IMG/VR virus record: IMGVR_UViG_3300024239_000161
Coordinates: 1-64,000 of that record
Source: a virus
Reading direction: 5' to 3' (one strand)
DNA: 64,000 nt
The notes under the pieces were generated by a model. It worked only from the letters and a program-made list of their open reading frames with translations, did no database searches and had not been told where the DNA came from. This document shows, piece after piece, positions 3,383-43,181 of this stretch (position 1 is the stretch's first letter; each line of letters begins with the position of its first letter). A program made the position numbers and the translations under genes.

Positions 3383-4618
3383 ATGAGTTTAGAACCAGTA
3401 ACTAACTTTAAAGATAGTAATGGTGTTGATTTGGGGACTAAGTTAGTCACTAAAGACTATTTAATTACTGTTTACCCAGGAATTGCAGATAAGATAGGTA
3501 TTCCTCCAGAGTTATGGACTTGGGGTTTTGGAGTTTCTGGAAAACTTGGAAATGGAGTAATAACAGGATACATAAGTACTCCAGTCACCACATTCTCTGG
3601 AGGAACCAACTGGAAACAAGTGAGTGCTGGTAATGACCACATGGCAGCAATCAAAACTGATGGAACCTTATGGACTTGGGGTGAGGGAAGTGCACTGCTT
3701 GGAAATGGAATAACAATAGGAGACATAAGTACTCCAGTCACCACATTCGCTGGAGGATCCAACTGGAAACAAGTGAGTGCTGGAAGTGAGCATACAGCAG
3801 CAATCAAGACCGATGGAACCTTGTGGAGTTGGGGTACTGCAAGTCGGGTTGGAAATGGAGTAGTATCAGGATTCGCAATTACTCCAGTCACTACATTCGC
3901 TGGAGGAATCAACTGGAAACAAGTGAGTGGTGGAGAATTTCATACAGCAGCAATCAAAACTGATGGAACCTTATGGCTTTGGGGTACTGGATATAATGGA
4001 CAACTTGGAAATGGAGTAACAACAACGATTTTTGGTTACATAAGTACTCCAGTCACTACATTTGCTGGAGGAACCAACTGGAAACAAGTGAGTGCTGGAT
4101 CAGGTAATACAGCAGCAATCAAGACCGATGGAACCTTATGGATTTGGGGTGGTACAACTGATGGAAAACTTGGAAACGCAGTAATAACAGCAAACATAAG
4201 TACTCCAATCACTACATTCGCTGGAGGATCCAACTGGAAACAAGTGAGTGCTGGAAGTCAGCATACAGCAGCAATCAAGACCGATGGAACCTTATGGACT
4301 TGGGGTTATGGTGGTAGAGGAATACTTGGAAATGGAGTAGTGTTAGGAGTCACAGACATAAGTACTCCAATCACTACATTCGCTGGAGGAACCAACTGGA
4401 AACAAGTGAGTGGTGGAAGTCTTACAACAGCAATCAAAACTGATGGAACCTTATGGATTTGGGGTCATGCATTGGCTGGAAGACTTGGAAATGGAATAAC
4501 AACAGGAGACAGAAGTACTCCAATCACCACATTCGCTGGAGGAACTGACTGGAAACAAGTGAGTGGTGGATCAGATTTTGCAGCAGCAATTAAATCAGTA
4601 GACTTTACACCATTCTAA
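3383..4618 (+). CDS. RCC1-repeat fibre/adhesin 2
   Basis: 411 residues. A unique N-terminal stretch of about 45 residues (possible virion attachment) precedes exactly seven RCC1 blades, read as W[TSLI]WG...LGN motifs. It ends right after the last blade, so it lacks the C-terminal domain of the gene at 813. The blade framework matches the first RCC1 gene closely even in codons. Differences cluster in the residues after WG, before ISTP, and between WKQVS and AAIKTDG. It starts 2 nt after the stop of the DUF4376-like gene, so the two are cotranscribed. Confidence 0.75.
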   Translation: MSLEPVTNFKDSNGVDLGTKLVTKDYLITVYPGIADKIGIPPELWTWGFGVSGKLGNGVITGYISTPVTTFSGGTNWKQVSAGNDHMAAIKTDGTLWTWGEGSALLGNGITIGDISTPVTTFAGGSNWKQVSAGSEHTAAIKTDGTLWSWGTASRVGNGVVSGFAITPVTTFAGGINWKQVSGGEFHTAAIKTDGTLWLWGTGYNGQLGNGVTTTIFGYISTPVTTFAGGTNWKQVSAGSGNTAAIKTDGTLWIWGGTTDGKLGNAVITANISTPITTFAGGSNWKQVSAGSQHTAAIKTDGTLWTWGYGGRGILGNGVVLGVTDISTPITTFAGGTNWKQVSGGSLTTAIKTDGTLWIWGHALAGRLGNGITTGDRSTPITTFAGGTDWKQVSGGSDFAAAIKSVDFTPF

Positions 4619-4645: not shown

Positions 4646-5986
4646 ATGAACCCTCTTGAATTGGTTACAAAAACTCTGTACTCCTTCAACGAAAAGGAAC
4701 TTACAACGGAAGTTCTTCAAGCATTTGGAAAAAGAGCAGAAACTTTTGAGCAGCACGATGATGTTGCTAAGATTTTTTTTGAAATTAAAGATTTCTCAAA
4801 TGCTATTACTTATGGTGAGAAAGCACTTAAGTTAGCAAAGTCAAAAGAAGAAATTTACATTACTGCAAAAAACCTTATAAACGCATACAACCAAAATAAC
4901 TATCCAGAAAAAGCAATAACTCAAATCTCAAAAATCAAATCACAAAATCCTCAAGATTCTGAACTTCTTCTTGAGGAAACTTTTTCATATTCTGCCTTAA
5001 ATCAAAAAGAGAAATCAGAAAAACTTCTATTTGACCTAATTAAAAAAAGACTACCCGAAGAGATTGAAAGAAAGGCATATCATAACCTATCTGGACATTA
5101 CTTTCGTAAAGACGATATTCATACAGGACTTCAGCACTTTCTCAAAGCAGGAGAAGTAGAGGCATATAAGAATAAAAAGTATCCAAACTATGAGAAGTGG
5201 GATGGAACAGTAACTCCAGGTAGAACGATTATTATTGATAGTCAGTGTGGTGCTGGTGATGAAATTATCCATATTCGTTTTATGAAGCATCTGAAGAAAC
5301 TTGGAATGAATCCTATATGGACATCAACTAGAAAAGAATTAGTAAAACTTTTTAACTACAATGAATTTAACTCTGTCTGTGTTTGGGACAAACCAAAGTT
5401 TCCAAAAGATGCTTGTTGGGTTTATGCCCTTGCTCTTCCTTATTATCTTAATCTCAAGGTAGAAGATTTAGGTCAAACTCCTTATCTAAAACCACTACCA
5501 CAAAAAGAAGAGCAATATTCATATCTACAAGAAGACCAAAAATATAAGATTGGTACATTCTGGAACTCTGGTTCTGGATTTGAACAAGCACATTTTCGTT
5601 CTATTGATGCTGATGATTTATTCAAAGTTATATCAAAAACTAATTCGTCATTATATTCACTTCAACTACCTGATCAATTGCCACCAGAGTATTATGAGGT
5701 AAATACTTTTGATATTCCAAATAGGGATTTTACAGATACATTCTCACTTGTATCTCAAATGGACTTGGTGATTACTTCTTGTACCTCTATTGCTCATATA
5801 GCAGCATCACAAGGTAAAGAAGTATGTGTCTTTGTACCGATTATGGAGTATTATGTTTGGACAAGTTCAACAGGAAAGTCTTGGTGGTATGGGGATAATG
5901 TCCATTTGTTCAAGCAAAAGAAACCAAGAAACTGGGACGAACCTTTGAAGCAACTGAAGGAATTTTTAAATGATAGAGGAGTATAA
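4646..5986 (+). CDS. TPR protein with GT9-like glycosyltransferase domain
   Basis: 446 residues. Residues 1-180 are helical repeats of TPR type (SNAITYGEKALKLAKSKEEIY and similar). Residues from about 190 resemble the GT-B fold heptosyltransferase-like family: IIIDSQCGAGDEIIHIRF is the glycine loop opening the first Rossmann domain, and the C-terminal half carries MDLVITSCTSIAHIAASQGKEV-type nucleotide-sugar binding sequence with conserved S/H positions. TPR plus GT fusions are common in bacterial protein O-glycosylation. It heads the glycan island and overlaps the next gene by 17 nt. Substrate unknown. Confidence 0.6.
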   Translation: MNPLELVTKTLYSFNEKELTTEVLQAFGKRAETFEQHDDVAKIFFEIKDFSNAITYGEKALKLAKSKEEIYITAKNLINAYNQNNYPEKAITQISKIKSQNPQDSELLLEETFSYSALNQKEKSEKLLFDLIKKRLPEEIERKAYHNLSGHYFRKDDIHTGLQHFLKAGEVEAYKNKKYPNYEKWDGTVTPGRTIIIDSQCGAGDEIIHIRFMKHLKKLGMNPIWTSTRKELVKLFNYNEFNSVCVWDKPKFPKDACWVYALALPYYLNLKVEDLGQTPYLKPLPQKEEQYSYLQEDQKYKIGTFWNSGSGFEQAHFRSIDADDLFKVISKTNSSLYSLQLPDQLPPEYYEVNTFDIPNRDFTDTFSLVSQMDLVITSCTSIAHIAASQGKEVCVFVPIMEYYVWTSSTGKSWWYGDNVHLFKQKKPRNWDEPLKQLKEFLNDRGV

Positions 5987-6428
5987 CCTTTCTTTTCTCA
6001 ATCTAAATACTATTAAGAGCAAACTTTTTCAAATAGAAACTAGTTCTCACGGTCTTGTAACCAATGGTGTTTCCACTTATAATTACGGAATGCCTACTCT
6101 ATTGTATCCAGAACTGACTGGATTGAGAAATATTCTTAAACAATATGTTAGAATATATTGTAATAAGTATGAGATTTCACCACTCAAATTTATCAATAGT
6201 TGGTTTAATATTTCAAAACCAGGAAATAAACTTAAGGCACATAAGCACGAAGAAAGTATTGTAAGTGGAGCATTTTATATTTCTGGAAAGACTCCTTTAA
6301 TATTTCCAGATACTTCAATCAGTCCTTATCCAGGATTATTAATCATTTTCTCAAGTGATTTGGTTCACTATACTGAAGAAGAAACAGAAGAAAGAATTAT
6401 TATTAGTTTTAATACAGATTACTTATGA
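5970..6428 (+). CDS. Putative 2-oxoglutarate/Fe(II) dioxygenase
   Basis: 152 residues. The C-terminal half has the double-stranded beta-helix signature: KAHKHEESIVSGAFYISG supplies a His and an acidic ligand, and SSDLVHYTEEETEERIIISFN supplies the distal His and the Arg that binds 2-oxoglutarate. The same layout appears in the small cyanophage 2OG-Fe(II) oxygenases. The substrate may be a sugar, a protein side chain or another metabolite. It overlaps both neighbouring genes, so it is translated in a coupled set. A CTAAATA motif at 6003 lies inside the gene and is probably fortuitous. Confidence 0.55.
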   Translation: MIEEYNLSFLNLNTIKSKLFQIETSSHGLVTNGVSTYNYGMPTLLYPELTGLRNILKQYVRIYCNKYEISPLKFINSWFNISKPGNKLKAHKHEESIVSGAFYISGKTPLIFPDTSISPYPGLLIIFSSDLVHYTEEETEERIIISFNTDYL

Positions 6429-7204
6429 AATTTTTATTTTTGGTTGGTTCAGCACTTAAACACTTTCAAGAAGAAAAGTTTAGTGCTTATGATGAGGAGC
6501 AAAGATTTGAGCAAACATTAAAAACGATTGAATGTATAAGAGAAAAAGTACCAAACTCTTATGTCGTTTTATTTGAGTGTTCTTCTAAACCAATTGACGA
6601 AAGGCAAAAAGATGTAATCAAAGAAAAAGCAGATTTGTTTTTGGAATTTTATAATGAACCAGTAATCAAACAAATCTACGAAAATCTAGAATCAAGACCA
6701 GAACTGATTACTTATGTTAAGTCATTATTAGAAACCAGAGGATTATTGAATGCTCTTTATGTAATTAAAAAACATAATCTATTCAGTGATAGTCAAAGAG
6801 TATTCAAATTGACTGGAAGATATTTGTTGAATGAGTATTTTGATATTAAAGATTATGAATCAAAGTTTCTTGAGGAACGATATATAATCAAAAAGTATGA
6901 CTATCTTCCACAAGAAGCAGAGAATTTTGATGGTAAAGAACTTGAGAATGTCTATGCTTATCTTTATGGTGCAAAGGGTATGATGGTAACTGGATTATGG
7001 TCTTTTGACCGTATGCTTTTTAATGAGATTGTTGAGACACTTGAGAAAGCATTTGTTTATATGGAAAAAATGATTCAATATACGGCAGGTACTGATGTTG
7101 AACATTCTCTTTATCGGTTCTTAAATAAAAGGAATGTGATTAGTATTCCAAATCTAGGACTTACAACAATCAAAGGAATGGAAGGAGATAGTTATAATAT
7201 ATGA
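6425..7204 (+). CDS. Putative glycosyltransferase-like protein
   Basis: 259 residues, no membrane segment. The N-terminus MKFLFLVGSALKH and the middle motif VFKLTGRYLLNEYFD resemble GT-A glycosyltransferases that read a wavy nucleotide-sugar site followed by a K(L/I)(T/S)GRY motif. No clear DxD is visible. ATG overlaps the previous stop (ATGA) and the gene abuts the next with a 4-nt overlap. It belongs to the sugar island by position; function inferred only. Confidence 0.4.
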   Translation: MKFLFLVGSALKHFQEEKFSAYDEEQRFEQTLKTIECIREKVPNSYVVLFECSSKPIDERQKDVIKEKADLFLEFYNEPVIKQIYENLESRPELITYVKSLLETRGLLNALYVIKKHNLFSDSQRVFKLTGRYLLNEYFDIKDYESKFLEERYIIKKYDYLPQEAENFDGKELENVYAYLYGAKGMMVTGLWSFDRMLFNEIVETLEKAFVYMEKMIQYTAGTDVEHSLYRFLNKRNVISIPNLGLTTIKGMEGDSYNI

Positions 7205-7869
7205 AACTAGCAATTTTTTATCATATAGCACAAATGGGTCTAGGTGCTTTCATATACCAACAGCAAATTCATAGACTTTATGCTTCAGGATTAATCAAAG
7301 AAGCATCTCATATTCACTTTGGAGTGAATGGAGACCAAGAACTTTTTAATGTTCCAGACAAGGCAATCGTAAAAAGAAATAAAAATTTAGGAGATGAATC
7401 GGACACCTTAATATCTTTAAGAGATTTTTGTAAAGAAAATCCAGACTACAAAGTTTTTTATTTTCACACAAAAGGTGCTAGTAAAAATGATTTACAAACA
7501 AGTGCTTGGAGATTGTATATGGAATACTATACGATTGATAAGTGGAAAGAGTGTGTAGAATATCTAAGTGAATATGATTCTTGTGGTACTGATTGTTATG
7601 GTGCTAAAAAAGTATTTTTAGATGAGTATATTCTCAAGCAAAGATTTGACTCTCATTATTTTGCTGGAAACTTTTGGTGGGCAAATGCTTCTTATGTGAA
7701 TACTTTAAATGATGAATATTTAAATCCAAATCTTCCAAGATTAACAAAAGAATTGTGGATAGGACAAACAACAAATGCTAATCCAAAATGTTTAAATTAT
7801 TCTAAGATGAATGGAGAAATTGGAGATTTTTATATAGACATATACGACGAAAAACTTTATATAAAATGA
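7201..7869 (+). CDS. Glycosyltransferase-like protein, FHTKG family (copy 1)
   Basis: 222 residues. Recognisable features are IFYHIAQMGLG at the start, YKVFYFHTKGAS near residue 86, WRLYMEYY, and HYFAGNFWWANASYV near residue 160. This is a family of small GT-A-like enzymes recurrent in phage and cyanobacterial polysaccharide loci. The downstream gene is a tandem paralogue. The overlap with both neighbours is 4 nt (ATGA). Confidence 0.5.
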   Translation: MKLAIFYHIAQMGLGAFIYQQQIHRLYASGLIKEASHIHFGVNGDQELFNVPDKAIVKRNKNLGDESDTLISLRDFCKENPDYKVFYFHTKGASKNDLQTSAWRLYMEYYTIDKWKECVEYLSEYDSCGTDCYGAKKVFLDEYILKQRFDSHYFAGNFWWANASYVNTLNDEYLNPNLPRLTKELWIGQTTNANPKCLNYSKMNGEIGDFYIDIYDEKLYIK

Positions 7870-8519
7870 AACTAGCAATTTTTTATCACATAACTCAAAT
7901 GGGGTTGGGTGCTTTTGTATATCTACAACAAGTTCATAGATTATATGCTTCTGAATTAATCAAAGAAGCAGATTATATTCACTTTGGTGTAAATGGAGAC
8001 CAAGAACTTTTTAATGTTCCAGAGAATACAAAGATCGTTTATAATCAAAACCATAAAGAAGAAACAGAAACTCTAATCTCTTTAAGAGATTTCTGTAAAG
8101 AAAATCCAGACTACAAAGTTATTTACTTTCACACAAAAGGTATATCTCAACACTGCCTAAATGGAGAGAGTTGGAGACTAATGATGGAATACTTTGTGAT
8201 TGATAGATGGAAAGAATGTGTAGAATATTTGAATGATTATGATGTTGTTGGAAGTAATCTTAAGATTTTAGGACCAACAACTTGGAGTGATGGTACACAA
8301 ACTTGGGAAAAGGTAGGAACTCAACATTTTGTAGGAAACTTTTGGTGGGCAAATGCTTCTTATGTAAATACTTTGGATGATGAGTTCTTGAAGAGTAACT
8401 TTAGATTGGACAGAGAATTCTGGATTGGTACTGGAAATGGTAAGATGAAATCTTTGTATCAACCAGAAGACCACGAACCTTATACATATTTTTATCAGGA
8501 GAAAGATTATGTTTCGTGA
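7866..8519 (+). CDS. Glycosyltransferase-like protein, FHTKG family (copy 2)
   Basis: 217 residues, a tandem duplicate of the preceding gene. The first 17 codons are almost the same in DNA, and FHTKG, WRLMMEYF and HFVGNFWWANASYV are kept. The C-terminal third differs, including a longer segment with TWSDGTQTWEKVG. Divergence after duplication suggests acceptor specialisation. Confidence 0.5.
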   Translation: MKLAIFYHITQMGLGAFVYLQQVHRLYASELIKEADYIHFGVNGDQELFNVPENTKIVYNQNHKEETETLISLRDFCKENPDYKVIYFHTKGISQHCLNGESWRLMMEYFVIDRWKECVEYLNDYDVVGSNLKILGPTTWSDGTQTWEKVGTQHFVGNFWWANASYVNTLDDEFLKSNFRLDREFWIGTGNGKMKSLYQPEDHEPYTYFYQEKDYVS

Positions 8520-8862
8520 ATGTGGAGAATGTACTGCTTGTTGTACTTGGTTGATTGGTGATGCTTTTGCTTGGAAGTTTGGTCAGGGACAGTCTTGTAA
8601 GTTCTTGGAATGTAATGGATGTGGAGTTCATAAAGGACGACCAGAATCTTGTAGGAATTATCAGTGTGCCTGGAGTCAACATTTGCTACCAGAAGAAATG
8701 AGACCTGATAAGTGTAATGTATTAGTATCTGTGGAACGAAATGAAAATGGTCAATACCTTAAAGTGTTTGGGATAAATAATAAAAGAATAACTGATGATA
8801 TGAGAAAGTGGTTTATAGAATGGGGGGAGAAAATGAATACTCTAGTTTTGATATCAGAGTAA
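8509..8862 (+). CDS. Cys-cluster protein, YkgJ-like (zinc/iron chelating)
   Basis: 117 residues with nine or so Cys arranged CGECTACC near the start, then C-x4-C-x2-C and RPESCRNYQCAW. This is the pattern of the YkgJ/CxxCxxCC family, proposed to bind zinc or an iron cluster. It overlaps the previous gene by 11 nt. It has no obvious sugar chemistry, but it travels with the glycan genes; it might be an activating or metal-binding partner of the oxygenases. That link is inference. Confidence 0.55.
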   Translation: MFRECGECTACCTWLIGDAFAWKFGQGQSCKFLECNGCGVHKGRPESCRNYQCAWSQHLLPEEMRPDKCNVLVSVERNENGQYLKVFGINNKRITDDMRKWFIEWGEKMNTLVLISE

Positions 8863-8886
8863 TTTACTAAGTCTTAGAGATTTCCA

Positions 8887-10083
8887 ATGCCTACCTTTTA
8901 TAACTTTAGAGAAAATGGACTTGATTATAGTTTTGATGATATCTTTGTGCCTGCTGATTTATTTCGTGAAGGTAATTTATGGGATTGGGGTTTTGAAGAT
9001 GCTGGAAGACTTGGAAATGCAATAACATCATCAGCATCCATAAGTACTCCAGTCACTACATTCTCTGGAGGAACCAATTGGAAACAAGTACATGCTGGTC
9101 GAGTTAATACAGCAGCAATCAAGACCGATGGAACCTTATGGATTTGGGGTGCTGGAGGTAATGGAAAACTTGGAAACGCAGTAACAACAGGAGACATAAG
9201 TACTCCAGTCACTACATTCTCTGGAGGAACCAATTGGAAACAAGTACACAGTGGGTGGTATCATACAGCAGCAATCAAAACTGATGGAACCTTATGGACT
9301 TGGGGTTATGGTCTACTTGGAATACTTGGAAATGGAATAACAGTAGGAAACATAAGTACTCCAGTCACCACATTCGCTGGAGGATCGAATTGGAAACAAG
9401 TGAGTAATGGGCAGTATTTCACAGCAGCAATCAAGACCGATGGAACCTTATGGACTTGGGGTATTGGAAACCTTGGACAACTTGGAAACGGACAGATATC
9501 TGCTTTTCCTTCTACTCCTGTCACTACATTCGCTGGAGGAACCAACTGGAAACAAGTGAGTTGTGGAGGTTATCATGTAGCAGCAGTCAAAACTGATGGA
9601 ACCTTATGGACTTGGGGTGCTGGAAGTAATGGAAGACTTGGAAATGGAGCAACAGTAGGATCCATAAGTACTCCAGTCACTACATTCTCTGGAGGAACCA
9701 ACTGGAAACAATCGGCATGTGGACGTTTTCATACAACAGCAATCAAGACTGATGGAACCTTATGGACTTGGGGTGCTGGAAGTGGTGGAAAACTTGGAAA
9801 TGCAACAACAACAGGAGACATAAGTACTCCAGTCACTACATTCTCTGGAGGAACCAATTGGAAACAAGTGAGTGGTGCAAGTGATAATACAGCAGCAATC
9901 AAAACCGATGGAACCTTATGGACTTGGGGTAGTGGAACGCAGGGAAAACTTGGAAATGGAGTAGCAACTTTTGCATATATAAGTACTCCAATCACTACAT
10001 TCGCTGGAGGATCCAATTGGAAACAAGTGAGTGGTGGAGATCTTCATATTGCAGCACTAACCTACATCGATTCAGTAATCTAA
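8887..10083 (+). CDS. RCC1-repeat fibre/adhesin 3
   Basis: 398 residues. About 30 unique N-terminal residues are followed by seven RCC1 blades and a short tail, the same build as the gene at 3383. DNA identity to the other two RCC1 genes is very high in the framework, for example the stretch coding [10 protein letters not shown]. The gene lies inside the sugar island, between a Cys-cluster gene and a sulfotransferase, which hints that the glycan enzymes act on these fibres or on the receptor they recognise. Confidence 0.75.
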   Translation: MPTFYNFRENGLDYSFDDIFVPADLFREGNLWDWGFEDAGRLGNAITSSASISTPVTTFSGGTNWKQVHAGRVNTAAIKTDGTLWIWGAGGNGKLGNAVTTGDISTPVTTFSGGTNWKQVHSGWYHTAAIKTDGTLWTWGYGLLGILGNGITVGNISTPVTTFAGGSNWKQVSNGQYFTAAIKTDGTLWTWGIGNLGQLGNGQISAFPSTPVTTFAGGTNWKQVSCGGYHVAAVKTDGTLWTWGAGSNGRLGNGATVGSISTPVTTFSGGTNWKQSACGRFHTTAIKTDGTLWTWGAGSGGKLGNATTTGDISTPVTTFSGGTNWKQVSGASDNTAAIKTDGTLWTWGSGTQGKLGNGVATFAYISTPITTFAGGSNWKQVSGGDLHIAALTYIDSVI

Positions 10084-10086
10084 ATA
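10080..10086 (+). promoter_or_regulatory. Late-promoter-like motif CTAAATA
   Basis: It spans the stop of the third RCC1 gene and lies 29 nt before the sulfotransferase ATG. Confidence 0.45.
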
Positions 10087-10108
10087 CACATAACAACTGA
10101 AAAATACT

Positions 10109-10891
10109 ATGAAGACTTTGTATTTTCTTGGAGGACTTCCAAGAAGTGGTTCCACACTATTAGGGTCACTTCTTAATCAACATCCAGACATTTATGTTTC
10201 TCCAACATCTCCATTAAGTGATTTTGTTACTGATATAGAAAAAATATTCAATAAAGTAAATGAGCAATTTACTTTTGACCGTAAAGAAATATCTTATAAT
10301 GTTTATAAGGCAGTGCTTGCTAACTTTTATAATCATATACCAAAGTCTACAATATTAGATAAGCATAGATTTTGGGGAAAGAATCTTGATATAGTTCAAA
10401 GGTTTCTTTCCAATAAACCAAAGATTGTAGCAACTTATCGTTCTATTCCAGAAGTTCTTACATCTTATATTTCGCTCATAGAAAAATCAAAGCACGAAGA
10501 TAATTTTATCGATAATCACTTAAGAAAAGATAAACTTGCAATCACAAATAATAATCGTGCCGAATATATTTGGAGATATTATGTTTCTCCATCTTATGAG
10601 TCTATGGTTTATGGACTTACAACGTACCCAGATTGGGTTCATTTGGTAGAATATAATAGTCTTGTAGAAAATCCAGAAGCAGAGTTGAATAAAATCTATG
10701 AGTTTCTGGAGATTCCTTCTTACACAAATACCTTTGATAACATTGATAATACTTGTGGAGAACAAAAGGATGATGCTTGGGGGTTGAAAGGTCTTCACGA
10801 TATTCGTCCAAATTTATCCAAAATCTCACAAAATCCTATTGATATAATAGGAGAAGAAAATGTAAAACTTTATTCCAAATTTGATTTATGA
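10109..10891 (+). CDS. Sulfotransferase family protein
   Basis: 260 residues. The N-terminal GLPRSGSTLLGSLLNQHPD is the 5'-phosphosulfate (PAPS) binding loop of the sulfotransferase family. Later KPKIVATYRSIPEVLTSYIS matches the 3'-phosphate-binding R...S region, and LVEYNSLVENPEAELNKIYEFL is the family's C-terminal signature. It would transfer sulfate from PAPS to a hydroxyl or amine of a sugar or tyrosine. Marine cyanophages carry such genes, but the acceptor is unknown. It overlaps the next gene by ATGA. The late motif just upstream suggests use during particle assembly. Confidence 0.75.
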   Translation: MKTLYFLGGLPRSGSTLLGSLLNQHPDIYVSPTSPLSDFVTDIEKIFNKVNEQFTFDRKEISYNVYKAVLANFYNHIPKSTILDKHRFWGKNLDIVQRFLSNKPKIVATYRSIPEVLTSYISLIEKSKHEDNFIDNHLRKDKLAITNNNRAEYIWRYYVSPSYESMVYGLTTYPDWVHLVEYNSLVENPEAELNKIYEFLEIPSYTNTFDNIDNTCGEQKDDAWGLKGLHDIRPNLSKISQNPIDIIGEENVKLYSKFDL

Positions 10892-11694
10892 AAACTCATT
10901 TGTTAGTGGTTATTCAGTCTCATTCAAAGGGGAATAGAGAAACCGATGAAAATCATAAAAGATATTGTAATGCTCCAAAGATTGAAGTATCATCAAGGTG
11001 TATTTTCTCTGTGATCGATAGTCTTAACTACGCTCAAGAACAATATCCAGATTATGAAATAGAACTACAAATCTTTGATGACCATTCAGACCAAGAGTTT
11101 TTAGATATTCTTCAAAGACTGATTGATACTGCAAAGTTTCGAGTTAATTTGACTCATCTTGAAACCTACGGTATAATGCCTTCTATACTTCGTTGTTATG
11201 AGCATGGAAGAGACTATGGAAAGGATTGGGTTTACTTTGTTCAAGATGATTTTTTACATCAACAAAACACAATCGAATTAATGCTACATGCAATCAATCA
11301 GTTTAGTTGCAACTTAGGAAAACCTGCTAGCATCTTTCCATTTAATAAACCGGCAGAATATCATTTACCAGAAAATACTGCTGTTCTTTGTAATCTTGTT
11401 GTTGGAAAAGATCGATACTGGAGAACCAATATTCATCCAGCAGTGACTCTAATGACTCATAGTAGTATTATTAAACTACACTGGGACTTGTTTTACAAAA
11501 TGGCAACAAGTGAAGTGAGTGAAACGATGGAAATGGATAGTATTTGTAAGATTTATTATCAAAGAGGATACTATTGCTTTACACCTATTCCATCATTAGC
11601 ACTTCATATGCAGACAGAATGGGATAAGGACTTCTTCATTGATTGGAAGTCTTGGTGGAATGAATATGATTTGGAGAAATTGAAAAATGTTTAA
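10888..11694 (+). CDS. Glycosyltransferase family 2-like (GT-A)
   Basis: 268 residues. The opening LLVVIQSHSKG, the strand ELQIFDDHSDQEFLD (NDGS-type region) and WVYFVQDDFLHQQ (DxD-type metal/nucleotide site) follow the GT-A order. The C-terminal half includes a Met/Glu-rich helix and a TEWDKDFFIDWKSWWNEYD tail similar in feel to the tail of the gene at 12283. Position in an overlapping run of modification genes supports a glycan role; donor and acceptor are unknown. Confidence 0.55.
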   Translation: MKTHLLVVIQSHSKGNRETDENHKRYCNAPKIEVSSRCIFSVIDSLNYAQEQYPDYEIELQIFDDHSDQEFLDILQRLIDTAKFRVNLTHLETYGIMPSILRCYEHGRDYGKDWVYFVQDDFLHQQNTIELMLHAINQFSCNLGKPASIFPFNKPAEYHLPENTAVLCNLVVGKDRYWRTNIHPAVTLMTHSSIIKLHWDLFYKMATSEVSETMEMDSICKIYYQRGYYCFTPIPSLALHMQTEWDKDFFIDWKSWWNEYDLEKLKNV

Positions 11695-12286
11695 TCATAT
11701 ATCACTACCAAATCCTGGAGTAATAACTGGACAACTTCCAGAAGACGTACATAACCAAGTGATGGAAGAGGTGAATGGAATTTCAACAGACTTTCAATCA
11801 CACTCAAAGTATAATAATGGACTTGCTGGAAATATTGAAAGACAATATGAACTGAAAAAATCCATTCCAATTCTTCAACCATACTTGAATGGTATGTGTA
11901 AGTCTTATACAAATTATTGGAAATTTTATCAAAAAGAAGAAGAATTTAATCTCACTCATTTATGGGTTAATTTTCAAAAGAAGAATGAATTTAATCCTAT
12001 CCATCATCACAGTAGTACTTTTAGTTTTGTCTGCTGGTTAAAAATTCCTTATAAAGTAGAAGAAGAATTGAACGCTTCTCACGTTAAAGACACAAAAGCA
12101 AAAGCAGCATCAACATTCCAGTTCATTTATCCAAACATTCTTGGACAATTAACTACAGAAACTTTATATGTAAATCAAGATTGGTGTGGTAGAATAGTAT
12201 TATTTCCTGCCCATTTATCTCATTGTGTTTATCCATTCACGACAAGTGATGACTACAGAATTTCCATATCAGGTAATTTAGAATGA
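11687..12286 (+). CDS. Putative 2OG-Fe(II) oxygenase
   Basis: 199 residues. LWVNFQKKN, then FNPIHHHSSTFSFVCWLKIP (metal-binding His and acceptor region), and LFPAHLSHCVYPFTTSDDYRISISGN (distal His and Arg) match the cyanophage 2OG-Fe(II) oxygenase family often annotated as PF13759-like. The expected Asp of an HxD pair is not obvious, so activity is uncertain. It is the second of three oxygenase domains in the island and overlaps both neighbours. Confidence 0.5.
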   Translation: MFNHISLPNPGVITGQLPEDVHNQVMEEVNGISTDFQSHSKYNNGLAGNIERQYELKKSIPILQPYLNGMCKSYTNYWKFYQKEEEFNLTHLWVNFQKKNEFNPIHHHSSTFSFVCWLKIPYKVEEELNASHVKDTKAKAASTFQFIYPNILGQLTTETLYVNQDWCGRIVLFPAHLSHCVYPFTTSDDYRISISGNLE

Positions 12287-12981
12287 AAATTAATGTATAT
12301 TTAAGACACTGCTATTACTCAAAAATTCAAGAGTCTCCAGGAAAACAGAGACCTTCTTGGTGGGATAAAGAAAAGGTATTCCAAAATTTTAAAAATACTC
12401 TTAATCCAGAAACCACAAATTATACACTCGTCTATGATGAATATTATGGAAAGATAGAAGATACTTTCTTATCACAGGAGAATAATGTTCATACTATTAA
12501 TTGCGGTGGAGAAGCAAAGAGTTTTATTGAGACATTAAAGTATGTCCAATCTCAAAACCATTCTCCAGATGATATCATTTACTTTCTAGAAGATGATTAT
12601 GTTCATCAACCAGGATGGGATAAAGTTCTAATGGAGGGATTTACTCTACCAGTTTCTTATGTGACCTTGTACGACCATAGAGATAAGTATGGTGAATATT
12701 ATGAAGAGTTTCGTACCAAAGTTTTGTTCACAGATTCTTGTCACTGGATGGCAACACCATCAACGACAAATACTTTTGCCGTTAAGTATTCAACTCTCGT
12801 AGAAGACTTTTATACTCACACTAAATATTCTACAGGAGTGGAACCATCAGCGGACCACCAAAAATTTTTAGAATTATCTCAAAGAGGAAGAGTTCTTATC
12901 TCTTCTATTCCTGGTTATTCTACACACTGTCAAGAAGATTTATTATCACCTTGTATTGATTGGAAAAATTATCTATATTAA
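12283..12981 (+). CDS. GT-A glycosyltransferase-like protein
   Basis: 232 residues. The motif DDIIYFLEDDYVHQPGWDKV holds an EDDY metal-binding site of GT-A type, and the SADHQKFLELSQRG and STHCQEDLLSPCIDW segments form the C-terminus. It is likely a companion of the gene at 10888, sharing the DD-x-x-H layout. ATGA overlap with the previous gene. Confidence 0.45.
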   Translation: MKINVYLRHCYYSKIQESPGKQRPSWWDKEKVFQNFKNTLNPETTNYTLVYDEYYGKIEDTFLSQENNVHTINCGGEAKSFIETLKYVQSQNHSPDDIIYFLEDDYVHQPGWDKVLMEGFTLPVSYVTLYDHRDKYGEYYEEFRTKVLFTDSCHWMATPSTTNTFAVKYSTLVEDFYTHTKYSTGVEPSADHQKFLELSQRGRVLISSIPGYSTHCQEDLLSPCIDWKNYLY

Positions 12982-12985
12982 TAAT

Positions 12986-14548
12986 ATGAAATGGAAAGAT
13001 GTTGAAGGTTATTTTTCTTATACTAACCTTTATGATTTAGTAATTAAATACTGTCCAGATAACTCAACTTTTGTGGAAGTTGGTTCTTGGATGGGAAGGT
13101 CTACTTGTTATATGGGAGAACAAATTAAAAAATCTTCCAAAAATATCAAGTTTTATGCCGTAGATACTTGGGAAGGAAGCGAAGAACCTCAGCATAAAGA
13201 AACAATAGAAAAATTGAAGAATGAAAACCTAACTCTATTTGATATCTTTAATTATCATATTCAAATGTGTGGTATTCAAAAACAAGTAATACCACTCAAA
13301 ACTACTAGTGTAGAAGCAGCAAAACAATTTGAAGATAATAGTCTTGATTTTGTTCATATTGATGCCTCACACGATTATGAAAATGTTTTAGCAGATATTA
13401 TTGCTTGGTATCCAAAAGTAAAACCAGGAGGTTTTATTACTGGTGATGACTATGTAATAAGTTGGGGTGGAGTTATTCAAGCAGTTAAAGAATATTTTAC
13501 AGGAAAATCTGTAGTTCTTTTAGATCGTGGAGATTTTACATTAAACAAAGTTTGGTTACATCAAAAACAAGGAGAAAAAATGGACATCACACTTTATGCT
13601 ATTGCTAAAAACGAAGAAAAGAATGTTGAGAAATTCATTGAAATTTCAAAGAAGTTTACAAATACTGTTGTAGTTGATACGGGAAGCACAGATAATACAG
13701 TTCAACTACTCAAAGATGCTGGTATTGAAGTCTATGAGCATCCACAGACCAGAGAAGAGTTTGATTTTGCCAAAGCGAGAAATCAAGCACTATCTTATGT
13801 AAAGACTGATTGGGCATTTTCTCTTGATTTCAATGAAGATCTGGATGAGTTCTTTCCAGAAGGTCTTGGTGTAATTGCCGAAGAATTCACAGTATTTAAT
13901 CATGAACGATATGATAAGGTTGGAGACGAAGAACCAACATTAGGTCAAGCATCTCACATTCGTTTTCATAGAACCAAAAACTACATTTGGGTGAATGCTG
14001 TTCATGAAACTCCAACATTTGTTCCAACAGAAGAATATTTGAATGAAGTTGCCGTTAATATAACAGTTAAGATTACTAAGAATATCCAACCAAGTGTGGA
14101 TAAGCAACTTTTCTATCTTTCAATTTGCGAAAGAGAATTTGAAAAGAATCCTACAAGTGTTTATTATCTTTGGTTTATCTTCAAGCATTATTTTGAAGTT
14201 AAGAATATTGAGAAGACTATTGAACTTGGTCAAGAATATCTAAATCTTTCAAAAGCATATTTTGACCCATCAAGAATTGATGTGTTCATTATGACTAGTA
14301 TCGCTCTTATTAATACCAAAGATATTCAAAGAGCATCTAATTATGCTTTTCACGCATTAAGTGAAGCAATGAATATTGGTGGGGATGCTATGGGTAAAGC
14401 ATTCACTCATCTACTTAATATTGGTAGATTGACTCAAAATCCAAACATTATTGTATTTGCTTCTGGATTTAATTCTGAAACATTAACACTTCCTGAAAGG
14501 ATAGAAGCAATTCAAAACTTATATTTAAGCATTAAAAATGAAGATTGA
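12986..14548 (+). CDS. Methyltransferase-glycosyltransferase 2 fusion
   Basis: 520 residues from the ATG that follows the previous stop by 4 nt; an in-frame ATG at 12956 overlaps that gene and is less likely. Residues 1-185 are a class I SAM methyltransferase (FVEVGSWMGRSTCYMGEQI as the SAM loop, FVHIDASHDYENVLADI and KPGGFITGDDY), Methyltransf_24-like. From about residue 199 a GT2 domain begins with DITLYAIAKNEEKNVEKF, VVVDTGSTDNTVQLLK and FAKARNQAL, followed by a helical TPR-like tail. The linker contains AAGGAG 7 nt before an internal in-frame ATG at 13580, so the GT may also be made alone. Confidence 0.7.
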   Translation: MKWKDVEGYFSYTNLYDLVIKYCPDNSTFVEVGSWMGRSTCYMGEQIKKSSKNIKFYAVDTWEGSEEPQHKETIEKLKNENLTLFDIFNYHIQMCGIQKQVIPLKTTSVEAAKQFEDNSLDFVHIDASHDYENVLADIIAWYPKVKPGGFITGDDYVISWGGVIQAVKEYFTGKSVVLLDRGDFTLNKVWLHQKQGEKMDITLYAIAKNEEKNVEKFIEISKKFTNTVVVDTGSTDNTVQLLKDAGIEVYEHPQTREEFDFAKARNQALSYVKTDWAFSLDFNEDLDEFFPEGLGVIAEEFTVFNHERYDKVGDEEPTLGQASHIRFHRTKNYIWVNAVHETPTFVPTEEYLNEVAVNITVKITKNIQPSVDKQLFYLSICEREFEKNPTSVYYLWFIFKHYFEVKNIEKTIELGQEYLNLSKAYFDPSRIDVFIMTSIALINTKDIQRASNYAFHALSEAMNIGGDAMGKAFTHLLNIGRLTQNPNIIVFASGFNSETLTLPERIEAIQNLYLSIKNED

Positions 14549-14894
14549 AATTCCAGTATCAGTCGGTGAATTATTAGATAAGATTTCAATTTTAGAAATT
14601 AAATCTATGTTCACCGATAATGAATATGTTATAAAAGAGTTGGAACAATTAAATTCAATTAAGAGTACTCTAACTCAATATACTTTAGAGTATGAAATTA
14701 AACTTAAAAAAGTGAATGAAAAACTTTGGAAGATTGAAGATAGGTTGAGAAAGTTAGAGAAGGAACAAAAATTTGACGAAGAGTTTATTAAACTTGCTCG
14801 TAGTGTTTACATTACTAATGATGAGAGAGCAAGAATTAAAAGAGAAATTAATGAGATGTGCAATTCCGTATTTAAAGAAATTAAGTTATACTAG
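14538..14894 (+). CDS. DUF6165-like small coiled-coil protein
   Basis: 118 residues, strongly charged and helical. The N-terminus IEIPVSVGELLDKISILEIK matches the GELiDKitILEIK signature of DUF6165, a family found beside sugar-modifying genes in bacteria and cyanophages. Start overlaps the fusion gene by 11 nt. Function is unknown; a scaffold or chain-length role would be a guess. Confidence 0.6.
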   Translation: MKIEIPVSVGELLDKISILEIKSMFTDNEYVIKELEQLNSIKSTLTQYTLEYEIKLKKVNEKLWKIEDRLRKLEKEQKFDEEFIKLARSVYITNDERARIKREINEMCNSVFKEIKLY

Positions 14895-14900
14895 TGGTAA

Positions 14901-14907
14901 ATAAATA
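14901..14907 (+). promoter_or_regulatory. Late-promoter-like motif ATAAATA
   Basis: It is part of TAAATAAATA, 31 nt upstream of the ATG of the GH130-like gene and in one of the few gaps of the sugar island. Confidence 0.45.
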
Positions 14908-14931
14908 TATTCAATAACTTATTATGTTTTT

Positions 14932-15909
14932 ATGAACTTTGTAAAACTTGCCTCAGAAAATAGAGGTTCAATCCATCCTCTTATAATTCCTTCAGAATTA
15001 ACGAATGGTACAGGTCTTTTTAATCCCTCAGTTTTTGTGGATGGGAATAAAATATATGTGAATATAAGGCACTGTCAGTATACATTATATCATTCTGAAT
15101 TGAGCAACTATGAGCATCAATGGGGTCCTTTACTGTATTTGAATCCAGAAGATGATTTAACATTAACCACAACCAATTATTTTTGTGAGTTAGATTCTAA
15201 TTTCAATGCAATTGGATTTTCTCAAGTAGACACTGGAAAATTAGATCAAAAACCTTTATGGGAATTTGTAGGATTAGAAGACGGTCGTATAGTAAAATGG
15301 GACAATAAATTTTATTTGTGCGGAGTTCGTAGAGATACAACTACCAACGGCGTTGGTAGAATGGAATTGAGTGAATTGCAAACCATTGATAATAAAGTTG
15401 TGGAAACACAAAGATTTAGAATTCCAATGCCCAATAACCTAGATTCATATTGTGAAAAAAATTGGATGCCTATCTCTAATATTCCTTATCATTTTGTAAA
15501 GTGGGTAAATCCTACAGAAATTGTTAAATACAATCCTTACACAAATGAATGTGATGTAGTTTTTAGTAGTAATCAGCGTATTGAATTACCTAGAGATTTA
15601 AGAGGTGGTTCTCAGGTTATTCCATATAAGGATGGATACATTACGATTACTCACGAAGTCTATTTTTATGATAGTGAGGCAGGAAGAAAGAATGGGACTT
15701 ATCGACATAGATTTGTAATTTGGGATAAGGAATGGAATATAAAAAAGATAACTGAAGAATTTGATTTTATGGGAGCAAAAATAGAATTTGTTTGTGGAAT
15801 GTCTAAATATCGTGACAGTTATTTAATTACTTTTGGATTTCAGGATAACTGTGCTTATTTGTTAAAAGTTACTGAAAAATTTTTAGAGGATTATATCCAT
15901 GCTTCTTGA
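14932..15909 (+). CDS. GH130/GH43-like five-bladed propeller protein
   Basis: 325 residues. NPSVFVDGNKIYVNIRH, FVGLEDGRIVKWDNKFYLCG and KDGYITITHEVYFYDSEAG are typical blade strands of the glycoside phosphorylase/hydrolase propeller superfamily, and GLEDGRI resembles the EDPR motif of GH130. It has no signal peptide, so it acts in the infected cell or on a virion. It may trim or transfer sugar units made by the neighbouring transferases, or be a non-catalytic sugar-binding propeller. The next gene overlaps by 11 nt. Confidence 0.5.
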   Translation: MNFVKLASENRGSIHPLIIPSELTNGTGLFNPSVFVDGNKIYVNIRHCQYTLYHSELSNYEHQWGPLLYLNPEDDLTLTTTNYFCELDSNFNAIGFSQVDTGKLDQKPLWEFVGLEDGRIVKWDNKFYLCGVRRDTTTNGVGRMELSELQTIDNKVVETQRFRIPMPNNLDSYCEKNWMPISNIPYHFVKWVNPTEIVKYNPYTNECDVVFSSNQRIELPRDLRGGSQVIPYKDGYITITHEVYFYDSEAGRKNGTYRHRFVIWDKEWNIKKITEEFDFMGAKIEFVCGMSKYRDSYLITFGFQDNCAYLLKVTEKFLEDYIHAS

Positions 15910-17221
15910 AAGATTACAAGAATATATTCAAAATGTTGAAGATCCTAAAAATAATTTTAATCTTGCATTAGAATATAAAAAAATAAATCAAACAGCATCT
16001 GCAGTTTCATTTTTTATTCGTGCCGCTGATAGAAGCGAAGACTTAAATTTATCATACGAATGCCTATTACATGCGGCAGAATGTTTTGATAGGCAAGGAA
16101 AAAGAGAAGATGCTGTTAGAGGATTATATAAACATGCGATTTCAGTTCTTCCAAAAAGACCTGAAGCATACTTTCTTTTTTCAAGATTTGAAGAGAGAAG
16201 AAGACAATTTGACACTGCTTATATGTTATCATCTTTGTCTTTAGAAATATGTGATTTCGATCTTTCTCCATTAAATGATCATTTGGAGTATCCTGGAAAA
16301 TATGGGTTGATATTTGAAAAGGCAGTATCTTCTTATTGGTGGGGTAAAGGAGAGCAATCTAGGCAATTGTTTTTAGACTTATATCATAATTACTGGGATG
16401 TAATGGATCAAAGTCATAAAGACGCAGTTGATGCTAATATGGATAATTTAAAAATTGAAAGGGGAATAATTCCTGTAATTGGCGTTCCGATCGTAAATGG
16501 CGTGCACTGGTTAAAAAGATTAATTGATAGTGTCGATTACCCTGTTAAAAACTTTTTTATTGTAAACAATAATGGAAAAGGTGAGATTACTGAAGAATTA
16601 AATGAGATATGCAACTCTGGACACCCATTCATAAAAAATTTTCATGTTAGTCATATGCCTTCTAATTTTGGATGTGGAGGTGGATGGAATTTAATTATTA
16701 AATCTTATATGATGGAACCATACTGGATGCTTGTAAGTAACGATGTTGAATTTAGTCCTGGATTATTAAAAAAATTCTATCAAGAATCTTTAAATCCTGA
16801 ATATGGAATGATACATGCTAAAAAATCCGATTGGGGTGGAGGTATGTATGATTTATTTTTAATTAAGGATTGGGTAGTTCAAAAATGTGGATTATTTGAC
16901 GAAAATTTATATCCAGCATATGCAGAAGATGTTGATTATCATATTCGAATTATGAATGAAAATATAAAGTATAAATCTTTAGATGAAAATTATTTGCATG
17001 GTGAAGAAGATTATGCAACTACAGGATCTCAAACTTGGAGATTGGATATGAAGTTGAAAGAAAAATTAGACAATTCTAGAATACTTAATGAATCTGTATA
17101 TTTAACTAATAAATGGGGAAAAGAATTTAAATATTCAAAACCATTTAATATGGAAAATTATGATAATAAGTATACTACTTATGATTTGAATTTTATTAGA
17201 GAAAAAAATTTAGGATTTTAA
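15899..17221 (+). CDS. TPR-glycosyltransferase 2 fusion protein
   Basis: 440 residues. Residues 1-190 are TPR-like helices (NLALEYKKINQTASAVSFF, HAISVLPKRPEAYFLFSR). Residues 195-440 form a GT2 domain: IPVIGVPIVNGVHWLKRLI, FFIVNNNGKGEI, MPSNFGCGGGWNLIIKS, MLVSNDVEFSPGLLKKF (NDV as the DxD-type site) and AEDVDYHIRI (ED-x-D acceptor loop). This matches bacterial GTs that transfer to glycans or glycoproteins. It starts inside the end of the propeller gene. Confidence 0.7.
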   Translation: MLLERLQEYIQNVEDPKNNFNLALEYKKINQTASAVSFFIRAADRSEDLNLSYECLLHAAECFDRQGKREDAVRGLYKHAISVLPKRPEAYFLFSRFEERRRQFDTAYMLSSLSLEICDFDLSPLNDHLEYPGKYGLIFEKAVSSYWWGKGEQSRQLFLDLYHNYWDVMDQSHKDAVDANMDNLKIERGIIPVIGVPIVNGVHWLKRLIDSVDYPVKNFFIVNNNGKGEITEELNEICNSGHPFIKNFHVSHMPSNFGCGGGWNLIIKSYMMEPYWMLVSNDVEFSPGLLKKFYQESLNPEYGMIHAKKSDWGGGMYDLFLIKDWVVQKCGLFDENLYPAYAEDVDYHIRIMNENIKYKSLDENYLHGEEDYATTGSQTWRLDMKLKEKLDNSRILNESVYLTNKWGKEFKYSKPFNMENYDNKYTTYDLNFIREKNLGF

Positions 17222-17224
17222 TTT

Positions 17225-18475
17225 ATGGGAGAAGATAAAAATTATTCTGAAGAAATTTTAAAACAAGTCGAAAAAATTTATCAGGAATATGACCAAAAAT
17301 ATAATCTCTGGGGATGGTGTTCTTTAGAAAAGGCACAAGAAATTATTAAATGTATTCTTGAATTATCTGAAGAACAGGAAGAGTTAAATTGTCTTGAAGT
17401 TGGAGTTTTTGGCGGAAAGAGTTTAATTCCATTCTCTCTCACACTGAAATTTTTATCTAGGGGAACTGTCTATGGAATTGATCCATGGAATACTCAAGAT
17501 GCTTTAACTGGATATGATCATCCAAGTCACCAACAATTTTGGGGAACGGTTGATTTGGAAAATATGTTAAATGTCTGTTGCAATGCGATAGAAGATCTAA
17601 GTGTTTATGAGTATACAAAGTTGATAAGATCTACTAGTGATGATGCTCCAGCAATAGAAAATTTAAGTGTTATCCATATTGATGGTCAACACACAGTGCA
17701 AGTTCTTAAAGACATAAACAAATATGCTAGTAAGGTAGTTTTAAATGGTTATTGTTTTATTGATGATGTAGATTGGTCAGAAGATACTAAAAAATCAATA
17801 AAATTAATCGAATCTTATGGATTCGAAATGGTAAAAAATGTTGATGCCTCTATTCTTTTTAAAAGAGTTAGAGTTGAAAATTTTTCTATAAGTCTAAATC
17901 AAAAGTTAAGAGTATGGACTGTAGATAATTTTTATAATGATCCTTATTTTGTTCGTGATTTTGCTCTTCAACAGGATTATTTTGAGGGTGGAATAGGGAG
18001 GGGGTTTATTGGTAGGAGAACATATCAACAATTTTTGTTTCCAGGATTAAAAGAAAAATTTGAAGAAATTATGGGAAGAAAAATTACGGCATGGGAAGAA
18101 CATAGTGAAAATGGTAAATTTCAAATTGCTTGGGCAGGAGAACCCTTAGTTTATCATTGGGATAGTCAAAAATGGGGTGCTGTGCTATACTTAACACCTG
18201 ATGCTCCTTTTGAATGTGGAACAACATTGTTTGCACATAAAAAAACAAGAGGTAGAGATTATTATGAAGTCTCTTATGACGATGCTTTTTCTGGAGTTAT
18301 AAATGAAACCACAACACATTTAGACAAAACTCCATTCGAACCTGTAGATGTTATGGGAAATGTTTTTAATCGTCTCATAATATTTGATGGAAGTTGCATT
18401 CATTCTGCTTCAGAATATTTTGGTTGTAATAAAAATAGTGGCAGACTTTGGCAGATGTTCTTTTTTGATACTTAA
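17225..18475 (+). CDS. Methyltransferase-2OG oxygenase fusion
   Basis: 416 residues. Residues 1-210: class I methyltransferase of the Methyltransf_24 type (CLEVGVFGGKSLIPFSL, GTVYGIDPWNTQ, SVIHIDGQHTVQVLKDI, GYCFIDDVDW). Residues 215-416: a 2OG-Fe(II) oxygenase-like domain with YHWDSQKWGAVLYLTPDAP, FECGTTLFAHKKTRG and NRLIIFDGSCIHSASEYFG. The distal His and a downstream Arg are present. Fusion of the two suggests consecutive modification of one acceptor. It is separated from its neighbours by only 3-5 nt. Confidence 0.65.
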   Translation: MGEDKNYSEEILKQVEKIYQEYDQKYNLWGWCSLEKAQEIIKCILELSEEQEELNCLEVGVFGGKSLIPFSLTLKFLSRGTVYGIDPWNTQDALTGYDHPSHQQFWGTVDLENMLNVCCNAIEDLSVYEYTKLIRSTSDDAPAIENLSVIHIDGQHTVQVLKDINKYASKVVLNGYCFIDDVDWSEDTKKSIKLIESYGFEMVKNVDASILFKRVRVENFSISLNQKLRVWTVDNFYNDPYFVRDFALQQDYFEGGIGRGFIGRRTYQQFLFPGLKEKFEEIMGRKITAWEEHSENGKFQIAWAGEPLVYHWDSQKWGAVLYLTPDAPFECGTTLFAHKKTRGRDYYEVSYDDAFSGVINETTTHLDKTPFEPVDVMGNVFNRLIIFDGSCIHSASEYFGCNKNSGRLWQMFFFDT

Positions 18476-18480
18476 ACACT

Positions 18481-19260
18481 ATGAAACTAAAAAATTTTCC
18501 AAAAGTATATTGTGTTAGTTTGGAGAATGATATTACTAGAAGAAATATTCTTGTAGGACAATTTGAAAACTATGGAATTGATGATGTAAATTTTTTAATA
18601 TCGAAAAAATATCCAGAGTATTCTGAAAATATAGAAGGTGAATATTTACATCTCTATAGTGATGATGTTTATTCTATGAGAGGTATTGAATGTGGCGTTT
18701 CACATCTTAAACTTATAAAAAAATGGATTGAAGAATGTGATGACTCTTATGGATTTTTTTGTGAAGATGATTTAAGTCTAGAAACAGTTCAGTATTGGAA
18801 TTTTAATTGGGATGAATTTATAGAAAAATTGCCTGAAGATTGGGAATGTGTTCAATTGCTTCTTATTGCCGATCATTTTTATATAACTGAATTGAAATTA
18901 AAAGAAAGGATGTGGGATTTTTGGGGAGCAACCGCATACATTATGAAAAGAGAATATGCTAAAAAATTGGTAGACTCTTATGTTAAAGAAGATAAATTTA
19001 TTTTAAACCTTGTCAATGAAACTCCAAATGTATGGTATCATGATGAAAATTATTCTGCAGATCCATTGTATCACAAACAACCAAATTTAGTAGAAAATAT
19101 AGTTTTTACTGGGATTGGAAAAACTTACACTTTTCCACTGTTTGTTGAAAATATTTCCATAGAATCTACCTTTGTCTCTGGTGGACAAAAAGGATTTCAT
19201 ATCGAATCTTATAATGATGTGCTAAATTTATGGAAGATATATAAAGAAAACAAATTTTAA
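18481..19260 (+). CDS. Glycosyltransferase family 25-like
   Basis: 259 residues. FPKVYCVSLENDITRRNILVG is the diagnostic N-terminus of GT25 LPS-type transferases; MRGIECGVSHLKLIKKWIEE and FFCEDDLSLE (EDD metal site) follow in the expected order, and WGATAYIMKREYAKKLVD matches the family C-terminal motif. It adds a hexose to LPS-like or glycoprotein acceptors in related systems. Last gene of the sugar island. Confidence 0.7.
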   Translation: MKLKNFPKVYCVSLENDITRRNILVGQFENYGIDDVNFLISKKYPEYSENIEGEYLHLYSDDVYSMRGIECGVSHLKLIKKWIEECDDSYGFFCEDDLSLETVQYWNFNWDEFIEKLPEDWECVQLLLIADHFYITELKLKERMWDFWGATAYIMKREYAKKLVDSYVKEDKFILNLVNETPNVWYHDENYSADPLYHKQPNLVENIVFTGIGKTYTFPLFVENISIESTFVSGGQKGFHIESYNDVLNLWKIYKENKF

Positions 19261-43157: not shown

Positions 43158-43173
43158 CTTACATATATCATTT

Positions 43174-43181
43174 TATAAATA
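43174..43181 (+). promoter_or_regulatory. Late promoter motif TATAAATA
   Basis: 36 nt upstream of the HNH gene, between arms ACATATA (43161) and TATATGT (43184). Confidence 0.55.

Follow-up and report, generated by a model that had tools for sequence, protein, structure and literature searches.

A viral block of sugar-attaching enzymes probably organised about an RCC1 fibre protein and a predicted TPR-fused glycosyltransferase

FlmG, the flagellin O-glycosyltransferase of Caulobacter, is a cytoplasmic enzyme in which an N-terminal tetratricopeptide repeat (TPR) part, binding flagellin, is followed by a C-terminal GT-B domain, and its donor is pseudaminic acid (PMC7591256, accessible part). 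TibC heptosylates an adhesin and belongs, together with AAH, to the bacterial autotransporter heptosyltransferases (BAHT), as described in the accessible text of PMC4358343. These two are the closest experimental parallels to the mechanism proposed here for a locus of IMG/VR record IMGVR_UViG_3300024239_000161, a virus fragment of 89,329 bp whose first 64 kb are the window analysed. Positions 4646-19260 of the window are filled by 17 open reading frames (ORFs), all on the + strand and named g01-g17, which make up a block of enzymes that attach sugars or have related roles, probably organised about a conserved pair, an RCC1 fibre protein and g01. The source is a virus of cyanobacteria; among named phages the nearest to it is S-SRM01, a member of the Kyanoviridae from freshwater Synechococcus. 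In the accessible literature on this family and on phage protein glycosylation, subscription papers and preprints excepted, no paper on an RCC1-glycosyltransferase pair was found among those listed.

The first product of the block, g01 (4646..5986), is predicted to be a TPR part fused to a GT-B domain of GT9-like fold, and is proposed to act as a protein glycosyltransferase. Its AlphaFold2 model, built from 15 sequences (mean pLDDT 86.9), shows a TPR superhelix (residues ~1-175) and then a GT-B fold (~190-446). VIA comparisons give Z 17.1 to the GT9 protein 3tov (243 residues, 2.9 Å), 16.0 to heptosyltransferase II (WaaF), 16.0 to TibC, and 15.7 to WaaC, and GT9 folds fit the catalytic domain better than does GT41, the family of OGT and SPINDLY. 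The model, with fold matches for both halves, thus places TPR and GT-B in one chain, the layout of FlmG and OGT. A broad g01 profile searched against the PDB brought up TPR proteins only, among the matches listed, and a GxGD motif is present in 229 of 234 viral homologues.

The comparison with the known systems is one of partial likeness in every case. With FlmG, compared by layout, g01 shares the order of the two domains, and differs from it in the acceptor, which is flagellin for FlmG and is proposed to be the RCC1 propeller for g01. SPINDLY and OGT, which also combine TPR and GT-B, head the whole-chain Foldseek matches listed (E 1e-8 to 1e-5, TM score 0.26-0.33, root-mean-square deviation (rmsd) 13-22 Å; whole-chain VIA rmsd ~17 Å), and because the TM score is ~0.3 this likeness is one of layout. 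TibC and AAH share the GT9-like GT-B fold and the glycosylation of an adhesin, which is proposed for g01 as well, and HldE-like genes are found in the island of marine g01 relatives. Unlike the N-terminal beta-barrel of TibC and AAH, the N-terminus of g01 is predicted to be an all-helical TPR, and the four-cysteine iron finger of BAHT is absent from g01, whose cysteines lie at 201, 245, 257, 379, and 394 with no CxxC. Since both the iron finger and the beta-barrel are missing, g01 is no member of the TibC family; a loose version of the finger pattern matches 17 of the 234 homologues.

Upstream of g01, two RCC1-repeat genes flank a fibre gene. The first, rccA (813..2576, + strand), encodes a putative fibre or adhesin of 587 aa (Pfam WD40_RLD 5.9e-57, RCC1 3.2e-41; Pfam calls were judged here against curated cut-offs, and matches under them are marked as such) and is syntenic with gp335 of S-SRM01, which adjoins the long tail fibre gene of that phage. 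It is followed by a gene for a DUF4376 protein of tail-fibre type (2593..3381, + strand; Pfam DUF4376 3e-6, over cut-off; PHROG tail fiber 1.1e-6) and by rccB (3383..4618, + strand; 411 aa; WD40_RLD 4.2e-62), immediately 5' of g01. A third RCC1-repeat gene, g07 (8887..10083; 398 aa; WD40_RLD 1.3e-83, RCC1 over cut-off), lies within the island. An earlier note, made from the letters of the window alone, had described an island surrounding a fibre gene, with RCC1 at its centre; g07 is indeed there, but with three RCC1 genes, plus the DUF4376 fibre gene, the locus is tied to fibres more closely than that description suggests. The order in S-SRM01 matches: RCC1, hypothetical, RCC1, g01, 2-oxoglutarate (2OG) oxygenase and, after further genes, RCC1, sulfotransferase, and others. 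Serine and threonine together make up 0.23-0.26 of four RCC1 proteins, a figure that has no control beside it and carries no weight here.

The linkage between g01 and RCC1 genes is both widespread and specific. Loci were fetched by g01 alone and then examined for RCC1; each scan gives the best 80 of several hundred candidates (335, 327, and 578 confirmed), so that remoter members are unseen. The first set comprises 158 loci in 61 clusters at 90% identity, 58 of them with at least 1.5 kb upstream, and here 43 of the 58 clusters have RCC1 just upstream of g01, with no ORF between, and 56 have it within six upstream ORFs; the exceptions are L213 and L158, of which L158 carries RCC1 farther downstream. 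In the second set, seeded with a divergent g01 homologue (76 loci, 49 clusters, 45 tested), RCC1 is found within 8 kb in 41 of 45 clusters, as the next upstream ORF in 16, with L233, L246, L279, and L287 as exceptions. Across both sets (234 loci, 101 clusters), RCC1 accompanies g01 in 79 of the 83 representatives that are 12 kb or longer. Counted by cluster, 95 of the 101 contain it in one locus or more, as do all 15 clusters formed at 50% identity. The 83 loci further carry a homologue of the g08 sulfotransferase (55), GT25 genes (32), and HldE-type genes (19). In L383 and L384, the g01 homologue is preceded by six consecutive RCC1 genes.

The controls behave differently. No RCC1 gene was found near distant homologues of g17 (0/6 loci) or of g10 (0/16 loci, several of them short), so the linkage is no general trait of hot-spot sugar enzymes. 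A profile search of 13 of the 22 control records gave no RCC1 either, the one positive among 14 being another assembly that matches the window. Of 23 loci with close g10 homologues, which lie within the same island, 21 contain RCC1. RCC1 is rare among phage records: of 50,697, RCC1 relatives are found by tblastn in 14, and g01 relatives in 4; the latter represent three viruses, all of them RCC1 bearers. In the reverse test, g01 is present in 48 of 48 window-like RCC1 loci of at least 15 kb, but is missing from 10 of 14 loci fetched with the RCC1 protein of BUCT-ZZ01, so the converse is not strict. An enzyme that needs its substrate and a substrate that does not need the enzyme would give this pattern, which is what an enzyme-substrate pair predicts and is no proof of one.

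The pairing is also met outside phage records. Among GTDB genome contigs, mostly from metagenome-assembled genomes (MAGs) and in part perhaps viral, RCC1 lies within 8 kb of the g01 homologue in 13 of 26 tested clusters and is the next upstream ORF in 9. The upstream neighbours of three RCC1-less loci were scanned: L331 has a cadherin/RTX surface protein there, L325 a protein with collagen repeats, and L275 a helicase. In L331 (a Ruegeria atlantica contig) and L325 (a Methylovulum MAG), the g01 homologue stands immediately 3' of the repeat surface protein, hinting, as far as gene order goes, that the g01 family may pair with repeat surface proteins generally.

Two relatives are particularly informative. 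BUCT-ZZ01 has, among its structural genes, a run of tail fiber, a short hypothetical gene, RCC1 (700 aa), and a g01 homologue of 571 aa that is 26% identical, with a short N-terminal part and a weak methyltransferase match C-terminally; phmmer finds no further island gene within the surrounding 24 kb. This arrangement is a reduced fibre/RCC1/g01 version of the island. The marine virus AG-345-E08, with a g01 identity of 24-25%, carries in a single run three RCC1 genes, g01, a sulfotransferase, GT25, and genes resembling g10, g06, and g04/g05; behind them come a 4,6-dehydratase-like gene and matches to HldE domains II (3.9e-30) and I (5e-39), both below cut-off. In another relative (L020), a collagen-like (GTQGIQGSTGSQG) protein is encoded 3' of the island, at 9852-11306.

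With moderate confidence, the island is best interpreted as a glycosylation module of the phage, FlmG-like in layout and with exchangeable decorating enzymes, that would act in the cytoplasm on RCC1 proteins taken to be tail fibres. Its core would be the enzyme-substrate pair of g01 and an RCC1 protein. The TPR half of g01 would grip the newly made RCC1 protein, and its GT9-like GT-B domain would add the first sugar. The remaining glycosyltransferases of the island would then lengthen this sugar, while the 2OG oxygenases, methyltransferases, and sulfotransferase could shorten or cap it, or else add hydroxyl groups to residues. Decoration would take place in the cytoplasm, before the fibre joins the baseplate, and may affect how the fibre adsorbs, how stable it is, or how it is recognised.

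Several observations weigh against this interpretation. There are other reasons why genes for fibres and genes for receptor modification can be linked. The score of g01 against Pfam GT9 is 11.7 bits, far below the cut-off of 22, and for this reason the protein is said to have a GT9-like fold and not to be a GT9 family member. The TPR part is short in the BUCT-type homologues, 13 of the 26 bacterial-contig clusters have no RCC1 nearby, and 10 of 14 loci fetched with the BUCT-ZZ01 RCC1 protein, several of them short, are without g01. Finally, the RCC1 fibres diverge faster than the enzymes: among representatives with g01 at least 80% identical, the median identity of the RCC1 genes is ~66% (n=6, 10, 10), against 75-88% for the widely kept enzymes (the rarer g04, g10, and g14 stand at 66.7% (n=1), 68.3% (n=3), and 54.3% (n=3)), and a shared modification would require each of these fibres to retain an acceptor motif.

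The island might instead act on a host surface glycan, such as LPS (lipopolysaccharide)/O-antigen or an S-layer glycan, for example excluding phages that share the receptor or preventing released virions from sticking to debris; it would then travel with the fibre genes because fibre and receptor change must match. LPS-type sugar clusters are indeed known in large cyanophages (PMC3037559, accessible part), and those of the T4-like P-SSM2 and S-SSM7 resemble the island in their many sugar enzymes of unproven function; they differ from it in lying near hli03 or phoH, whereas the island is part of a fibre operon and linked to RCC1. S-SRM01 carries both kinds, an hli-adjacent glycosyltransferase cluster with Gmd/Fcl genes and the RCC1 fibre island, and the accessory 3' genes of the island are phage-specific, both of which would suit action on the host. 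This explanation is nevertheless considered less likely than fibre decoration, although it is a serious rival to it. Polysacc_synt (flippase) and Wzy_C have no match in any of four records, the 89-kb record and three long relatives, although such genes do not define all phage LPS or capsule clusters. No membrane-spanning stretch was detected in any island protein by a simple hydropathy scan (19-residue maximum 1.25, against 2.68 for a control ORF), the TPR fusion of g01 suggests a protein partner, and the linkage is specific to RCC1 and recurs in some bacterial contigs, where a contest for phage receptors need not apply.

In S-SRM01 and AG-345-E08 the island has structural genes around it, which would fit the decoration of other virion proteins, such as the capsid or other fibres, with the RCC1 genes as mere neighbours in a fibre hot spot. 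This is improbable given that RCC1 directly precedes g01 in 43 of the 58 clusters of the first set and that the distant g17 and g10 homologues lack the linkage. Hypermodification of the phage DNA can be given hardly any credence. 2OG oxygenases and glycosyltransferases are enzyme classes that occur in known DNA base hypermodification, and some PHROG matches bear names such as 'DNA methyltransferase', but the methyltransferase domains are Methyltransf_24/TylF-like, the 2OG domains belong to the 2OG-FeII_Oxy_5 family, and the island adjoins fibre genes, not genes of nucleotide metabolism.

The earlier note had proposed direct decoration of a fibre or of a host sugar, pointing to missing polymerase, flippase, and sugar-nucleotide genes. 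For the six families covered, the absence holds in the 89,329-bp record, where CTP_transf_like, GDP_Man_Dehyd, PfkB, NTP_transferase, Polysacc_synt, and Wzy_C have 0 matches; the statement fails for the relatives, and the argument is weak because the record is a fragment and relatives carry sugar-nucleotide genes. The fibre half of the proposal is the better supported, owing to the TPR and glycosyltransferase fold of g01, the RCC1 linkage, the lack of membrane stretches, and the reduced version in BUCT-ZZ01. That interpretation is thus partly supported, and sharpened here to a conserved RCC1-transferase pair.

As for activated sugars, the S-SRM01 island includes a 4,6-dehydratase-like gene, and Gmd and Fcl-like genes lie elsewhere in that genome. 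Gmd-like matches with E <=1e-143 occur in 5 of 14 records, of which only the S-SRM01 pair was checked further. GDP-fucose genes are found in S-SRM01 and HldE-like genes in other relatives, and neither in the 89-kb fragment; ADP-heptose, the donor of BAHT enzymes, is not claimed for g01, the record being without an HldE-type gene. The second glycosyltransferase cluster of S-SRM01 (NC_070963.1, 191592-205028; L396) lies beside hli genes, apart from the fibre island, and contains Gmd (over cut-off), Fcl-like, SIS isomerase-like, and NDP-sugar synthase genes. In the same genome (207378-209040; L001), psbA is annotated as two pieces around a homing endonuclease gene.

The remaining genes of the island follow one another closely, with overlaps at 10 of the 16 junctions and a largest gap of 37 bp. 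After g01 comes the 2OG-Fe(II) oxygenase g02 (5970..6428; Pfam 2OG-FeII_Oxy_5 5.8e-12, over cut-off; PHROG 1.7e-19) and the conserved protein g03 (6425..7204), which has no significant Pfam, PHROG, or PDB-profile match. The next two are paralogues, 58% identical: g04 (7201..7869) and g05 (7866..8519), the latter being a likely but not certain GT-A-fold glycosyltransferase according to its AlphaFold2 model (pLDDT 83.0; VIA Z 13.1 to heparosan synthase 2 and ~12 to other GT-A enzymes). Its transferase role is not sure because nucleotidyltransferases head its Foldseek list. The small g06 (8509..8862; PHROG 9155, unknown function) has eight invariant cysteines, with CxxCTxCC at its start, in an alignment of 13 sequences, and perhaps binds metal. 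PDB profile searches with the families of g01, g03, g05, and g06 gave nothing useful.

Downstream of g07 stand the sulfotransferase g08 (10109..10891; Sulfotransfer_3 1.9e-16, Sulfotransfer_1 also over cut-off), the GT2-family glycosyltransferase g09 (10888..11694; 3.3e-6, over cut-off), the 2OG-Fe(II) oxygenase g10 (11687..12286; 2OG-FeII_Oxy_5 9.6e-12), and the putative GT2-like g11 (12283..12981), whose Pfam GT2 match (0.053) reaches 13.9 bits against a cut-off of 23.3 and which has an invariant E-D-D-Y-x-H stretch in an alignment of 13. A fusion of Methyltransf_24 and GT2 follows in g12 (12986..14548; 8.4e-22 and 3.2e-9), its GT2 half weakly resembling the SunS peptide S-glycosyltransferase (NCBIfam 1.2e-6, below cut-off), and then the DUF6165 protein g13 (14538..14894; 8.6e-11) and the GH130-like g14 (14932..15909; 2.6e-5, sub-threshold). 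The 3' end is formed by three accessory genes: g15 (15899..17221), a GT2 protein (2.6e-6) with weak TPR-like matches N-terminally; g16 (17225..18475), with Methyltransf_24 (4.8e-7) and DUF6445 (1.3e-7), the latter a possible 2OG domain; and the GT25-family glycosyltransferase g17 (18481..19260; 7.3e-8).

These assignments confirm the observation of a sugar-modification island and leave the domain census of the earlier note mostly right, if slightly overstated. About 16 overlapping genes had been counted, where there are 17 and not all overlap. At least eight glycosyltransferase-like domains were listed, of which seven are supported, four by profile (GT2 in g09, g12, and g15, GT25 in g17), two by fold (g01 and g05), and one as a paralogue (g04), while g11 and g03 are unproven, g03 having been assigned by eye only. 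Two of three 2OG domains, those of g02 and g10, exceed the cut-off; the third, in g16, depends on DUF6445 and a PHROG match that g10 shares weakly. Both methyltransferase domains (Methyltransf_24 in g12 and g16) and the sulfotransferase were called correctly, and the GH130-like propeller finds its match in g14, at 23.7 bits under a cut-off of 26.

Conservation differs along the island. Among 39 representatives of close relatives, 30 are full, with at least 4 kb upstream and at least 10 kb downstream of the g01 start, and presence was scored by blastp with at least 60% query coverage. All 30 full relatives have g01, g03, g06, and g11; 29 have g05, g07, and g12, 28 have g08, 26 have g13, and 22 have g02, against 9 for g09 and g14 and 8 for g10. 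The paralogue g04 is found in none of the 30 and in one of the 39 representatives, and g15, g16, and g17 are found in none of the 39 by this rule, an absence that is weaker than the others because a 10-kb flank may stop short of them in many loci; g15 has 39-46% matches in seven loci. These counts point to a conserved stretch at about 4646-14894 and an exchangeable 3' end.

The motif ATAAATA is strand-biased in the window (17 on the + strand vs 4 on the - strand) as in an S-SRM01 stretch (13 vs 3), and stands 5' of several fibre and baseplate genes. It was not found ahead of g01-g06, so that late expression of the island would have to come from read-through. Three tRNA genes (Ile-tat, Met-cat, and Leu-taa) lie in the window at 43070-43784.

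On a broader and more tentative view, RCC1 adhesins and TPR-GT9-like transferases might form a widespread, virus-encoded cytoplasmic system for O-glycosylation of receptor-binding proteins, shared with some bacteria, to which phages would add extending, sulfating, methylating, and oxidising enzymes, and marine and other relatives heptose-activation genes, yielding a custom fibre glycan, perhaps heptose-based and sulfated. The RCC1-g01 pairing offers a concrete candidate substrate for a large unannotated glycosyltransferase family, and two cultured phages, S-SRM01 and BUCT-ZZ01, bear the pair. If the proposed mechanism is true, phages have glycosylation machinery devoted to the proteins with which they bind receptors. 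Sequence-based predictions of how specific and how stable a fibre is, and of how it evades recognition by the host, would then have to be made differently.

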